In this document: positions 1 to 5,992 of the stretch, one piece after another | Layout: each line of letters starts with the position of its first letter | How positions within the stretch are numbered: the stretch's first letter is position 1 | Assembly (NCBI GenBank): GCA_021772775.1 | Contig: JAJFLH010000029.1 | Location: 36,633-100,632, forward strand | Length of the DNA stretch: 64,000 nt | Origin: Mariprofundus sp. | Lineage (GTDB): Bacteria > Pseudomonadota > Zetaproteobacteria > Mariprofundales > Mariprofundaceae | Reading direction: 5' to 3' | Notes under the pieces: model-generated | Database searches by the model: none | Seen by the model: only the letters and a program-made list of their open reading frames with translations | Told to the model about the DNA's origin: nothing | Made by a program: the position numbers and the translations under genes

Positions 1-262
1 GAAAGACCGGGTCGCTGGCAATATGGTTTTTATTGTAAAGTGTTAACCATTTAGCATCGAAACCATAAGACGAAAACAGACTGGGCTGATGAGCCTCATG
101 ATCCTGATACAATAACAGCACTGACTTTGAAGCCGTTAAACATGCAATATTTTCTAATACCGTATCCCAGACATGACTATCCAATATAGCATCATAAATA
201 CGGCTAATGATTTCGCCTATATATTGTTCCTGATTAGAGAGGGTCTCGTTATCTCCATCCAT
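1..262 (-). CDS. LuxR-type transcriptional regulator, N-terminal part (runs off the window)
   Basis: This frame is absent from the ORF track because it leaves the window at base 1. It starts at ATG 262 behind a GGGGG run nine bases upstream; an in-frame ATG at 271 is the alternative, and the frame stays open back to an ATG at 346. The visible 87 codons read MDGDNETLSNQEQYIGEIIS..., then a stretch ending IASDPVF. The layout (helix, W-D-x-x-L-E-x-I, then a GAF/PAS-like strand with LLLYQD and an Y-x-K-N-H-x-x-x-D-P turn) resembles the N-terminal sensory half of HTH LuxR regulators that lack an autoinducer-lactone pocket. The DNA-binding half lies outside the window. It diverges from cqsA, so a role in regulating the quorum system is possible but unproven. 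Confidence 0.55.
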   Translation of the reverse strand, partial: MDGDNETLSNQEQYIGEIISRIYDAILDSHVWDTVLENIACLTASKSVLLLYQDHEAHQPSLFSSYGFDAKWLTLYNKNHIASDPVF

Positions 263-599
263 TGATTGCATCCCCCGAACAGGCAAAACATATAGCACCT
301 GAACAACTTTTTCTTCATCTATATTGATGATGCATCGAAAAAACATCTGAATATTTTATCCATCATCATCCAAAAAAGTCATTTTTTATCAAAATAGGGA
401 AAAATAAATGCGTTTTATCATCAACATTGATGATGAGGAGCTTATTTTTTGATGTCAGCCTAAGCCGTTCAGATTTAATCCATTGAATGCTTTGCAGCAT
501 ACAAGTTTGAAAAAACTGCAACAACATGAACAAAGCTGTTTCAAAATCATCATTGAGCAGTTCATGGCTTTCTGATTGTAACTGCCATAAAAACATCGA

Positions 600-702
600 A
601 GAGAGAACCTAGCTTTCATCATCAGAGATATCCGCTCTCTCACTCCTTGGTGCCTGAACAGGCACACCGAAAAGGCCACCACAGGCCTCGGTTTAATAAG
701 GA
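600..702 (+). promoter_or_regulatory. Structured 5' leader of cqsA (three hairpins ending at the Shine-Dalgarno)
   Basis: Three inverted repeats follow one another directly upstream of the cqsA start. Bases 600-640 pair AGAGAG with CTCTCT around a long loop. Bases 650-665 form GTGCCT-GAAC-AGGCAC. Bases 666-692 form ACCGA plus GGCC pairing with GGCC plus TCGGT. The last helix ends only a few bases before the AAGGAG ribosome-binding site at 697-702. This is the layout of a translational control element, but I cannot match it to a named riboswitch. Sequence observation; function inferred. Confidence 0.45.
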
Positions 703-709
703 GAACACT

Positions 710-1954
710 ATGCAACCACAAAAAAAACAACAACACGACGAACTATTTTATCCTGAATTTGTGACCAAACGGGTGGAGCACTACTACAGTGAACGCGTAG
801 AAAAAACATGGGGGGGAGGTCATATCCTTCGTGGCAGAACACCTGATAAAAATTCCATTGTGCTGATGAGCAATGATTATCTCTCTTTGGCGAATCATCC
901 AGATGTTATTCAAGCACAAGCTGAAAGCTTACTGCAACAAGGTAACGGTATGATGATGTCCGGCGTCTTTCTTGATAATAGCAGCCCTCAAAAACAGTTT
1001 GAAGAGGAGATGGCCAGCTTCATGCAAGCGGAATCTGCTATTGTCAGCCAATCCGGTTGGTGCGCCAATATAGGTCTGATTCAATCTTTGGCCGATAAAA
1101 CTACCCCCGTCTACATTGATATGTTTGCTCATATGTCACTTTGGGAAGGTATACAGAGTGCCGGAGCGACAGCTAGAGCCTTTCGCCACAATGATCCCAT
1201 TTCACTGGAGAAAATGATCTGCCAACATGGTGCCGGCGTTATTCTGGTCGACTCTATCTACTCCACCAGTGGACGGATATGCCCATTGGCCGAAATCGCT
1301 GATATTGCGCATCGATATGGTTGCATTTTCATCGTTGATGAATCGCATTCTTTAGGCACACATGGTGACAACGGTGAAGGTTTAGTCGCAGCACTTGGTT
1401 TAACCGATCAGGTACACTTCCGCACAGCCAGTTTAGCCAAAGCCTTTTGCGGGAGGGCCGGTATTATCACATGCCCCTCCTGGTTTAGTGATTATTTCAT
1501 GCAAGAAGCAAGACCTGCTATTTTCAGTTCAACACTACTGCCTCATGAAGTAGCCTCACTATCAGCCTCTTTAAATGTCATTCGAAGTGAACAGTGGCGT
1601 CGTGATCGCTTACAAGAGAATGCAGATTATCTCCGCACTCAATTGGACCAATTGGGTTACAATGTCTCAGCAAGCCAATCACAAATCATCTCTTTAGAAT
1701 CAGGTGACGAGAAACAGACCATGATTCTAAGGGATGCATTGGAGTCCAGAGGTCTATTTGGAGCTGTATTTATGGCTCCTGCCACACCGAAGAAACGTTC
1801 TATTATTCGTTTTTCAGTTCAAGCATCCATGTCGAAACAAGATATGCAGCATATGATTAACGTCTGTAGAGATGTCCGGGAGGAGGTCGGTATGACAAAT
1901 TGGTCTTCGACACGCCGTAAAAACAGACCTTTACATATAGCAAAAGGAATTTAA
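710..1954 (+). CDS. cqsA: CqsA/LqsA-type alpha-hydroxyketone autoinducer synthase
   Basis: A PLP-dependent alpha-oxoamine synthase-like enzyme. In Vibrio and Legionella the CqsA/LqsA family condenses an acyl-CoA with an amino-acid-type substrate (S-adenosylmethionine in Vibrio CqsA) to make CAI-1/LAI-1-type signals. The sequence shows the family start (MSNDYLSLANHP), a glycine-rich stretch, the cofactor aspartate motif IVDESHSLGTHG and the PLP-lysine region TASLAKAFCGRAG. I set the start at ATG 710 rather than the ORF-track GTG 647, because AAGGAG lies seven bases upstream of 710 and the upstream 21 codons overlap leader hairpins. The product is 414 aa, slightly longer than Vibrio CqsA. It is convergent with the lqsR/lqsS-like pair, which completes a signal-plus-receptor module. 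Generic alpha-oxoamine synthases (KBL, BioF) are the alternative; the neighbours argue against that. Confidence 0.88.
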   Translation: MQPQKKQQHDELFYPEFVTKRVEHYYSERVEKTWGGGHILRGRTPDKNSIVLMSNDYLSLANHPDVIQAQAESLLQQGNGMMMSGVFLDNSSPQKQFEEEMASFMQAESAIVSQSGWCANIGLIQSLADKTTPVYIDMFAHMSLWEGIQSAGATARAFRHNDPISLEKMICQHGAGVILVDSIYSTSGRICPLAEIADIAHRYGCIFIVDESHSLGTHGDNGEGLVAALGLTDQVHFRTASLAKAFCGRAGIITCPSWFSDYFMQEARPAIFSSTLLPHEVASLSASLNVIRSEQWRRDRLQENADYLRTQLDQLGYNVSASQSQIISLESGDEKQTMILRDALESRGLFGAVFMAPATPKKRSIIRFSVQASMSKQDMQHMINVCRDVREEVGMTNWSSTRRKNRPLHIAKGI

Positions 1955-1975
1955 TCACTGGTTGATGAATATAAT

Positions 1976-2016
1976 GAAACGTGGCAAGCACGGTTTAACC
2001 ATCTTGCCACGTTTTC
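1976..2016. terminator. Hairpin terminator between cqsA and the lqsR-like gene
   Basis: GAAACGTGGCAAG pairs with CTTGCCACGTTTTC around a 14-base loop, followed by a T-rich stretch on the plus strand. It sits between two convergent genes and probably ends transcription from both sides. Confidence 0.75.
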
Positions 2017-2065
2017 TTTAAGCCTATTGAAATAAAGAAACCACTTTATGGAATGAATAAAAGTT

Positions 2066-3019
2066 CTATTCGTCTAGAAAATCATTAAAACTTAACAGAT
2101 CACCAGAGCTTTGGGCAGGAGACAAACCTTGAACCAAGGCATAGCGGTAGTTCTGTTTTTCTCCTTTAAAGTTCGATGCCTTATGCAAAGCGGATTGCCA
2201 GTTTATACAATCGGGCAAGTAATAACCGCCATCAGGGAAACAAGCGATAACATCCTTTTTATCCAACGCTTCGAGCAACTCTGTTGGGGCTTCTCGATCA
2301 TGGGCAACGACAAGCTGGTCTGCGCACAAGGCCTCACTTTGAATAGCTAAAAAATCACTATCACCATTAGCTTTTTGTAACCAGATCCCCCCCGGACTAC
2401 TATCAACATAATACTCAACATAATCGCCTTGAATAAAGATCTCATCAAACAAGCTACTAAAACCAGTTTCCTCCATAAATGGAAAATAATTGTGAATGAT
2501 ATGATTTTTCTGCAAGTAAAGCGTCTTATTTTTGAAATAGTCTTGCTGCAACACATCAATGCTTTCTATGATTTTCCCTAAAACATGCGCATCCTGTTTA
2601 ACAATAAATCGATCAATAATATCGTCATTAAACGCCTGAATTGCAATATTTTCACCAGCCACACCAGTCAACATAATCTTTTTAATTTCTGATTTCTTAA
2701 GCCCCTTACAGAATTCCAGACCGCTCATTTCTGGCATATCATAATCGACAACAACAAGAGTAACTTCATCAAAGCGTGAGACATCAAACATACGATTCTT
2801 AAACGATGGAAGTGCCCCCTCATCACTATCTAAACCCTCGAATATAGTAGTATATAATTTACTATCATTAATCCACTTAAGCGCTTCTTTAGCTGACCCG
2901 AACAGTTTAAAGTTCACATCTAATGCATGAAGTCCAAAACTTAAACTTTCCATAAATCGAACATTGTCATCAACCAACACAACGGTAGTAGGATGAAAAT
3001 AAGGTGTAGAATTAATCAT
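2066..3019 (-). CDS. LqsR-like response regulator
   Basis: The N-terminal receiver (about residues 10-160) has the acidic start VVLVDDN, the phospho-acceptor aspartate in VVVDYDMPEMSG, a threonine in MLTG and a lysine in IVKQD. An insertion lies between its second and third strands. The remaining ~150 residues are not a known DNA-binding domain: there is no helix-turn-helix and no GGDEF/EAL signature. A receiver plus a unique C-terminal domain is the layout of Legionella LqsR, and placement beside a synthase and a CqsS/LqsS-like kinase supports that. The start codon overlaps the kinase stop (ATGA), implying translational coupling. Assignment to the LqsR family rests on architecture and context, not on alignment. 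Confidence 0.7.
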   Translation of the reverse strand: MINSTPYFHPTTVVLVDDNVRFMESLSFGLHALDVNFKLFGSAKEALKWINDSKLYTTIFEGLDSDEGALPSFKNRMFDVSRFDEVTLVVVDYDMPEMSGLEFCKGLKKSEIKKIMLTGVAGENIAIQAFNDDIIDRFIVKQDAHVLGKIIESIDVLQQDYFKNKTLYLQKNHIIHNYFPFMEETGFSSLFDEIFIQGDYVEYYVDSSPGGIWLQKANGDSDFLAIQSEALCADQLVVAHDREAPTELLEALDKKDVIACFPDGGYYLPDCINWQSALHKASNFKGEKQNYRYALVQGLSPAQSSGDLLSFNDFLDE

Positions 3020-4311
3020 AATCTCTCCTTGGGAAAGTTTAACTGAAACTCAGTATATTCATGTTCAACTGAAAAGCATTCCATACTTCCCTGAAAGCTC
3101 TGCATCACCATTGAGCAATAAGAGAGTCCCACACCATGACCATATTTCGATGTTGAATAAAACCGTTTAAAAACATGCGCTAACTCTTCAGCCCCGATCC
3201 CCGGCCCTGTATCTCGAAAATGCAGATGATTGTAGGGCTCAGAGCTACTTATGGATATCCTAATTTCCCCTTTGCCAGCTTTAGCAATGGCATATAAAGA
3301 GTTTTTCAATAAATTAAACAATATATGCACAGTTAAAATATCCGAACCTTTAAATATAAAATCATCTTCACCAACACAAGTAATGCGTTGGCGGTCCTCT
3401 TCACTATTAAAAGGATAACGCTCCAAAGTCGTTTGAATACACTTTCTGATACTTTGTTGACTAAAGTCGGCTGTTTGAATAACTCCCTTATCTGAACTCA
3501 CCAATAGCATATCAATCACCGTATTCGCATAGTCCACCTCTTTACTGATACGACTGGGTAGGTTCACCAGTTGTATTCTATGTTCTTTACGCACTAAAGG
3601 AACCTTTAAGCCATGCTCTTTGGCTAATTGATAAGTCTCCAGTAGAGCTGGCATATATGCATCTAAGCCAGCACAATTACTTTTAATACTAAGCAGAGGT
3701 GTGCGTAGTTCATGAGCAATATTGCCGCTAGCGGCAACCAATGTTTCTAGTTTCTCAAATCTTATTCGAGCCATATAAGAGCGATAATTAAAAACACTTC
3801 CCACGCAGACTGCAAAAAAAGCAATGACCAGATATTGAAGAAACCCATCAGGAAAAATAAATCTCTCTTGATCCACAACAAAAGCCGACCAACCAAGTAG
3901 AGAACCAATCGAAAACAGAGCAATCAGGTTTTTCCAGCTCGTGACCAACATCATCATAACAAAAATTGCTACAAATGCCGACATACTCCAAGCCTCATTC
4001 AGATCATTTTTCAATAACATAAATGTAAAAAAGAAAGGCAAACAATAAAGAATAGTAATATGCCAATAGGCAAAAAAGAACTGCTGTAGCCTTATTGGCC
4101 AGTGCGTATAAAAAAACAACACAAGACAGAGCAGGGAGCCAATTAAACGCAAAGTAAGATTTTCATAAGGTTGAGGAAAAAAATCATGCCAAATAAAATA
4201 ATAGAGTGGAAAGCAGGTGACTCCTACTATGGATATAGCGGTAATATTCGTTGAGGTATAATCACTATCCGTCAACATTTCAGCCTGCGGACTAACCACG
4301 CGTTTATTCAT
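3016..4311 (-). CDS. CqsS/LqsS-like membrane sensor histidine kinase
   Basis: About six hydrophobic segments fill residues 20-185 with no large periplasmic domain, as in CqsS/LqsS autoinducer receptors. The histidine box is NIAHELRTPLLSIKSN, with the phospho-acceptor His near residue 200. The ATPase region has NLLKNSLYAI (N box), FRDTGPGIG (G1) and KYGHGVGLSYC (G2). There is no attached receiver; the next gene supplies one, overlapping by four bases. I infer that it senses the ketone made by the CqsA homologue and phosphorylates the LqsR-like protein. Other membrane kinases could look similar, so the ligand is an inference from context. Confidence 0.75.
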   Translation of the reverse strand: MNKRVVSPQAEMLTDSDYTSTNITAISIVGVTCFPLYYFIWHDFFPQPYENLTLRLIGSLLCLVLFFYTHWPIRLQQFFFAYWHITILYCLPFFFTFMLLKNDLNEAWSMSAFVAIFVMMMLVTSWKNLIALFSIGSLLGWSAFVVDQERFIFPDGFLQYLVIAFFAVCVGSVFNYRSYMARIRFEKLETLVAASGNIAHELRTPLLSIKSNCAGLDAYMPALLETYQLAKEHGLKVPLVRKEHRIQLVNLPSRISKEVDYANTVIDMLLVSSDKGVIQTADFSQQSIRKCIQTTLERYPFNSEEDRQRITCVGEDDFIFKGSDILTVHILFNLLKNSLYAIAKAGKGEIRISISSSEPYNHLHFRDTGPGIGAEELAHVFKRFYSTSKYGHGVGLSYCSMVMQSFQGSMECFSVEHEYTEFQLNFPKERL

Positions 4312-4380
4312 GTAAAAAAACTCTGTCTAATCCTGAAGAAGGTCAAGGAATTATATCAACACTGAAATCATCAAACTCTC

Positions 4381-4710
4381 TTACTTTTTGCCTTGCCAAT
4401 CACCCGTAACAATATTACCAGATTCATCAACATGGGCCGGCACATATTTATGTATTTCGGTGTCACCCGTGTCCAAACTCATAAACACCGACACTGCACA
4501 AGTCAGGCTAATCGCGACAACAAGAGCATAAAACCAGTTTGGGGCACGCTCTTTTTCCACTGGTGTAATATCTATGATCTCCACTTGTTGCGCTTGATCT
4601 TCTCGCCGTTTCGCTTTTAAGAGCAATAACAGGGTGATATTTCGCAACATGAATAACAGCAGTGCCGGCCCAAAGAAAAAGAACAGCGATACAAACAGAC
4701 TTCGAATCAT
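4381..4710 (-). CDS. Small membrane protein of unknown function
   Basis: 109 aa with two hydrophobic segments (about 3-31 and 60-80) joined by a charged linker KAKRREDQAQQ and followed by an acidic C-terminal tail. No known domain recognised. Its start overlaps the stop of the DUF1841 gene (ATGA), so the two form a small operon that points toward the kinase gene. Confidence 0.6.
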   Translation of the reverse strand: MIRSLFVSLFFFFGPALLLFMLRNITLLLLLKAKRREDQAQQVEIIDITPVEKERAPNWFYALVVAISLTCAVSVFMSLDTGDTEIHKYVPAHVDESGNIVTGDWQGKK

Positions 4711-5816: not shown

Positions 5817-5992
5817 AGTTGTTGCACTGGCATTATGGCTTATAAGTCTGGGCCTATGTGTACTGAAAGGGAGCTTGTCTATCCTCGCTGTTGTGCGTCC
5901 CTGAACTGGGATACCTGATGCTAAGGACGCGGCACCCACCTTAACAAAGGGTTTTAGTTCATTATAGGCCATAATGCCAGTACAACAACGTA
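5817..5992 (+). ncRNA. ssrS: 6S RNA candidate
   Basis: No coding frame explains this stretch, yet it folds into one long rod. GTTGTTG (5818-5824) and ACTGGCATTATGGC (5826-5839) pair with GCCATAATGCCAGT (5968-5981) and CAACAAC (5983-5989), about 21 bp with one mismatch. A terminal stem pairs GCGTCC (5895-5900) with GGACGC (5925-5930). Between them is a large unpaired central bubble whose 3' side holds the small CCTT-AACA-AAGG hairpin typical of 6S RNA. About 176 nt fits the family (usually ~180). A TAGATA -10-like box lies at 5805-5810, and a strong terminator follows at 6005-6047. 6S RNA mimics an open promoter and binds sigma-70 RNA polymerase. The usual zapA neighbour is absent. Confidence 0.8.

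Follow-up and report, generated by a model that had tools for sequence, protein, structure and literature searches.

Does a member of the Zetaproteobacteria carry a complete quorum-sensing system based on alpha-hydroxyketones (AHKs), and if so, how does it relate to the systems known from Vibrio (CqsA/CqsS) and Legionella (LqsA/LqsS/LqsR)? The question is raised by a 64,000-nucleotide (nt) stretch of a Mariprofundus sp. contig (JAJFLH010000029.1, positions 36,633 to 100,632; hereafter the window), in which a putative AHK synthase gene lies beside genes for a putative response regulator and sensor kinase. Our analysis indicates, with a probability of roughly 0.9, that this module is a new lineage's copy of LqsA/LqsS/LqsR quorum sensing, a relative of CqsA/CqsS, working by the mechanism proposed below. 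The three reading frames are intact where a preliminary description of this DNA had put them, and the similarity of their products to the named families is far beyond chance. They and the element between them are as follows.

710..1954, plus strand: AHK autoinducer synthase, CqsA/LqsA-type; 414 amino acids (aa), pyridoxal phosphate (PLP) lysine K244 in the motif SLAK
1978..2013, between the convergent genes: stem-loop, probable shared terminator, judged from sequence and fold on both strands
2066..3019, minus strand: LqsR-type response regulator; 317 aa, receiver and LqsR output domain
3016..4311, minus strand: LqsS/CqsS-type sensor histidine kinase; 431 aa, six hydrophobic segments at 23-174, H200, HATPase_c

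The three proteins and their families

The first gene had been described as a CqsA/LqsA-like synthase, and this assignment is borne out by profile models, solved structures and phylogeny. The NCBIfam model NF005526 for AHK autoinducer synthases gives the protein 612 bits (equivalog cutoff 428), whereas the BioF, KBL, SPT and ALAS models each score it under their own cutoffs. The best structure matches are to solved V. cholerae CqsA (PDB 3hqt/2wk8, E about 5e-108), with the next families at 5e-45. In a tree that included V. cholerae CqsA (LqsA itself was left out, as there was no named Legionella sequence), the synthase groups with CqsA and is separated 100/100 from SPT, from KBL/BioF and from the BioF-like paralogue of its own genome. 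An assignment to BioF or KBL was therefore rejected. The PLP lysine K244 is invariant among the homologues compared, and six of nine acyl-pocket residues, as listed in PMC3285556, are the same as in CqsA. The ATG at 710, preceded by AAGGAG at 698-703, is the best choice of start codon; an alternative TTG further upstream, at 647, is unlikely.

Six hydrophobic segments were seen in the kinase, together with a phospho-acceptor histidine, H200, and HATPase motifs; Pfam reports HATPase_c above and HisKA below the cutoff. Taken alone, its sensor domain (residues 1-190) finds a homologue, at E 1.6e-21, in a hybrid kinase of the CqsS type encoded beside cqsA in Vibrio (L008), in agreement with the earlier view of a CqsS/LqsS-like membrane kinase. 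This membrane-domain comparison covered Vibrio CqsS-type and LqsR-linked kinases, L. pneumophila LqsS itself not being included, and identity to the LqsR-linked kinases is at most 47%. The kinase is without a fused receiver, which is also true of LqsS (PMC3376566).

The regulator had been called LqsR-like, with a C-terminal half that matched no recognised DNA-binding domain and an output that was left open. The solved L. pneumophila LqsR (6sy9) matches it in a phmmer search with an E-value of 3e-33 over residues 75-317, that is, to the last residue. The receiver residues D17, D18, D92, T118 and K141 are invariant across 42 homologues, and an AlphaFold2 model of the full-length protein, with these homologues as input, has a mean predicted local distance difference test score (pLDDT) of 90.5. 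A Foldseek search with this model returned 6sy9 as the best PDB hit (template modelling scores of 0.78/0.80 over 328 alignment columns), aligned through both domains, while further hits align mainly via the receiver. When the C-terminal half was modelled alone and without relatives, the pLDDT was only 32. Because the 6sy9 match and the model cover both domains, the C-terminal half is assigned as the LqsR output domain. As judged from sequence and predicted fold, the regulator is an LqsR over its full length. The idea of an unmatched domain is thereby corrected, and the description of the output as open stands only in part, since the domain itself has a solved match although its biochemical output stays open. 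To our knowledge, the action of the LqsR output domain is unexplained in any organism.

Gene layout and comparison with known AHK clusters

The kinase and regulator genes overlap by four bases, stop codon over start codon, so the two form one operon. This operon and the synthase gene are convergent, and between them lies the stem-loop at 1978-2013, which consists of a perfect 11-bp stem (AACGTGGCAAG...CTTGCCACGTT) and a 14-nt loop and is followed by T-rich sequence on the plus strand. It is probably a terminator common to the synthase and regulator genes, and the convergent arrangement with one terminator, as originally described, is thus seen here with the terminator role being probable.

The module had also been presented as lying outside the Vibrio/Legionella context, with a layout unlike that of Legionella. 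Both statements are accurate for this locus, but neither feature is unusual. AHK modules beyond these two groups are already known, as jqsA/S/R of Janthinobacterium (PMC3566124) and as clusters in Ralstonia, Burkholderia, Nitrococcus and Polaromonas (PMC3376566); deletion of jqsA alters violacein production, and cqsA or lqsA complements it (PMC3566124). When 85,462 species genomes were scanned, 411 stretches encoding LqsR relatives came up, of which the best 80 were used for layout comparisons. Among fetched loci with a synthase nearby, the commonest layout is a kinase-regulator operon that faces the synthase gene tail to tail; most of the clusters fetched from Paraburkholderia, Paludibacterium, Rhodocyclales and Alcanivorax have it, as do others. 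Dozens of other proteobacteria likewise have a kinase-regulator operon next to the synthase, mostly in convergent orientation.

Compared with individual systems, the window resembles the L. pneumophila lqsA-lqsR-hdeD-lqsS cluster (signal LAI-1) in its synthase, its separate receiver-free kinase and its full-length LqsR fold, but lacks hdeD, has kinase and regulator overlapping in an operon that is convergent to the synthase, and has a LuxR-type gene alongside. Janthinobacterium sp. HH01, a non-pathogenic environmental bacterium, has the same three genes as jqsA-jqsS-jqsR (PMC3566124), whereas synthase and kinase genes diverge in Oxalobacteraceae loci related to Janthinobacterium (L082, L101, L111), instead of synthase and regulator converging as in the window. 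The clusters of Paraburkholderia, Paludibacterium, Sulfuritalea and Alcanivorax (L037-L107) have the same layout as the window and synthases 54-60% identical to its own, but differ in their synthase leaders and have no conserved LuxR neighbour of the window's type. Vibrio cqsA/cqsS (signal CAI-1) encodes a synthase and a six-transmembrane sensor that are both homologous to those of the window, and the genes are convergent in L008 and L032-L034, the latter three being counted with Vibrio by family tree position. Unlike the window kinase, however, Vibrio CqsS is of the hybrid type, carries a fused receiver and works via LuxU/LuxO, and its cluster is without LqsR. The system is therefore ordinary for its kind, a known kind of quorum sensing in a new lineage.

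Some further observations concern LqsR relatives elsewhere. Cupriavidus loci (L058-L062, L069-L079 and others) have LqsR homologues with neither a kinase nor a synthase gene in the flanks that were fetched, and LqsR appears to be an orphan regulator there. In genome G327, regulator and synthase are on different contigs. A 1.3 Mb genome (G336) has two separate kinase-LqsR pairs (L020, L022) and no synthase passing E 1e-85; these pairs may listen for signals that the genome itself does not make.

Distribution and insertion history

The synthase is present in only two of 78 genomes of the class, both in one genus, and no paper tying AHK synthases to Zetaproteobacteria turned up in the literature searched. 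In the second carrier (G009), pieces of the module lie on two contig ends at the same site, with the position of the regulator falling in the gap, and the synthase is 77% identical to that of the window over the first 210 residues. In six congeners, addB is separated by about 45-80 nt from a pair of genes encoding a small membrane protein and DUF1841, with nothing in between. The LuxR-type gene, synthase, regulator and kinase thus constitute one unit of about 5.5 kb, placed between two housekeeping genes at a site that is empty in these six genomes. The outer features are:

1..346, minus strand: 5' part of a GerE/LuxR-type regulator gene that leaves the window; 415 aa when complete, divergent from the synthase
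4312..4383: right edge of the inserted unit, adjoining the small membrane-protein gene and the DUF1841 gene; defined by the empty site between addB and the small membrane-protein gene in six congeners

Since the synthase occurs in so few genomes and the site is empty in the congeners, we infer that the unit, including the divergent LuxR-type gene, was acquired horizontally. In a tree of flanking genes, G009 groups with the module-free genomes G006 and G011, so a single gain with a later loss, or else two events, would be needed.

The presence of a LuxR-type regulator on the other side of the synthase, as first described, was confirmed: its gene enters the window at 346 on the minus strand, and the full 415 aa, recovered from the same contig, end in a GerE helix-turn-helix (Pfam GerE, E 4e-6). 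The gene holds the same position in G009. Pfam detected neither a receiver nor an autoinducer-binding domain in the protein.

GerE-type genes were also seen in 11 of 45 AHK loci examined, and some of their products do have an autoinducer-binding domain. Examples are at L049:3745-4500(-), L040:3746-4462(-), L077:3753-4604(+) and L068:8666-9382(+), and the hosts of such loci are Rhodocyclales, a metagenome-assembled genome of Minwuiaceae and Burkholderia sp. SRS-46. These neighbours hint at cross-talk of two signal types.

Proposed mechanism and alternative explanations

By homology, the PLP enzyme would join a fatty acyl-CoA and an amino-acid-derived substrate, yielding either an alpha-hydroxyketone itself or the corresponding amino precursor. 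Sensing of this signal would fall to the six-helix membrane domain of the kinase and would alter the flow of phosphate from H200 to D92 of the regulator, and the latter would act through its LqsR output domain, with no standard DNA-binding domain. Kinase and regulator would be made from one overlapping operon converging on the synthase across the shared terminator, and the whole would have arrived by horizontal transfer as a block of about 5.5 kb together with the divergent LuxR-type gene.

Some findings weigh against this interpretation. Three of the nine acyl-pocket residues of CqsA are changed (V32 to L40, F257 to Q265 and C346 to M355), and a Met at the C346 site was found in no other of twelve homologues compared. 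In view of this Met and the changed pocket, the product could differ from CAI-1/LAI-1, and its chain length is not fixed. Beyond this genus the module does not keep its LuxR-type neighbour, and G028, which lacks the module, encodes a 45% homologue of the LuxR-type protein. The pocket changes would also suit an alpha-oxoamine synthase of general type (BioF/KBL/SPT-like) that serves metabolism, next to a two-component pair that senses something else; the fold family is the same, and the BioF model gives the protein 276 bits. We consider this explanation extremely improbable, as all the other oxoamine-synthase models remain under their cutoffs while the AHK model is far above its own, the tree separates the protein from these enzymes, the same genome has a separate BioF-like gene (L002), and the synthase gene has LqsS/LqsR genes beside it, just as known AHK clusters do.

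It is also conceivable that the module is genuine by descent but has decayed or been repurposed, for example for eavesdropping on foreign ketones, without a working self-signal. The patchy distribution and the flanking-gene tree, with its gain and loss or two gains, would be compatible with such a history, as would the LqsS/LqsR pairs of some genomes (G336) in which no synthase passes the cutoff. On the other hand, the three reading frames are intact, catalytic residues are invariant, and a second species has kept the synthase at the same site and at considerable identity, so we judge decay or repurposing to be very unlikely. Somewhat less remote, though still unlikely, is that the LuxR-type regulator, rather than LqsR, provides the main DNA-binding output. 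Its gene lies within the inserted unit, divergent from the synthase, in G009 as well, and GerE-type genes recur at other AHK loci, in some cases with an autoinducer-binding domain. However, since this protein has neither of the two domains by Pfam, there is no visible link between it and the kinase, and its lack of conservation with the module elsewhere further argues against such a role. We thus favour an LqsR-type quorum-sensing module, in which the LuxR-type gene may be a passenger.

Predicted leader RNAs of AHK synthase genes

The 60 nt upstream of the synthase are predicted to fold into a structure that covers its Shine-Dalgarno sequence, with 643-649 paired to 697-703:

643..703, plus strand: predicted leader RNA of the synthase; Shine-Dalgarno at 698-703 paired with 643-649, inner hairpins at 650-665 and 666-692

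The energy z-score over 600-740 is -4.2, none of 200 shuffles was equally stable, and the predicted pairing probability of the Shine-Dalgarno sequence is 0.94-1.0 (about 0.99). The G009 leader retains both inner hairpins; for its Shine-Dalgarno sequence, a different segment upstream is the predicted pairing partner. Rfam covariance models found no riboswitch (such as SAM/SAH) in the window leader, with only a sub-threshold CrcZ nearby (21 vs 95 bits). A known riboswitch was rejected, as there was no Rfam match at this leader or at five Burkholderiaceae leaders. Elsewhere in the window, a possible 6S RNA lies at 5821-5987 on the plus strand (Rfam 31 bits vs a gathering score of 46, E 0.0014).

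Synthases of Burkholderiaceae (Paraburkholderia-type) have a different element of about 55 nt, with a single arm (GGCUC...GGAGCC) immediately 5' of the start codon, whose outer helix covers the Shine-Dalgarno sequence:

L088:8334-8397, L042:8362-8433, L068:8333-8395 and L090:8320-8388, minus strand: Burkholderiaceae leader element, also in L151-L159

A covariance model of this element gave hits in nine of 300 Burkholderiaceae genomes, all nine directly before an AHK synthase, and leaders of five loci tested had no counterpart in Rfam 15. Read per sequence, the apical helix has 15 distinct versions in 18 sequences, most of them better than shuffles; by a simple ungapped measure, those of L090 and L153 (two of 18) are no better. 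Automated covariation counts are only modest, in part because the apical helix is misregistered in the model-fitted alignment. We do not claim homology between the two leaders, as the covariance model (R1) gives no match on the window leader.

More broadly, predicted upstream pairing of the Shine-Dalgarno sequence is stronger in synthase genes, with a mean of 0.44 for 48 distinct leaders against 0.24 for 36 control genes at those loci (p = 0.003, uncorrected for relatedness), though many Rhodocyclales and Massilia leaders are without such pairing. We therefore suggest only tentatively, and at rather less than even odds, that structured leaders may gate the translation of AHK synthase genes by occluding the Shine-Dalgarno sequence, the window having a three-helix leader and Burkholderiaceae a different one. 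The literature searched yielded no paper linking cqsA/lqsA to a structured leader.

Implications

With this module, and with its occurrence in a second species at the same site, the range of LqsR-type AHK signalling now includes a class in which 76 of 78 genomes are without it. The clean empty sites allow gain and loss of the module, as well as the part played by the LuxR-type passenger, to be tested. The leader RNAs offer a concrete hypothesis, open to experiment, of how AHK production may be controlled after transcription; if it is true, either leader could be a switch controlled by a ligand, temperature or a small RNA, which would tie signal production to cell state.

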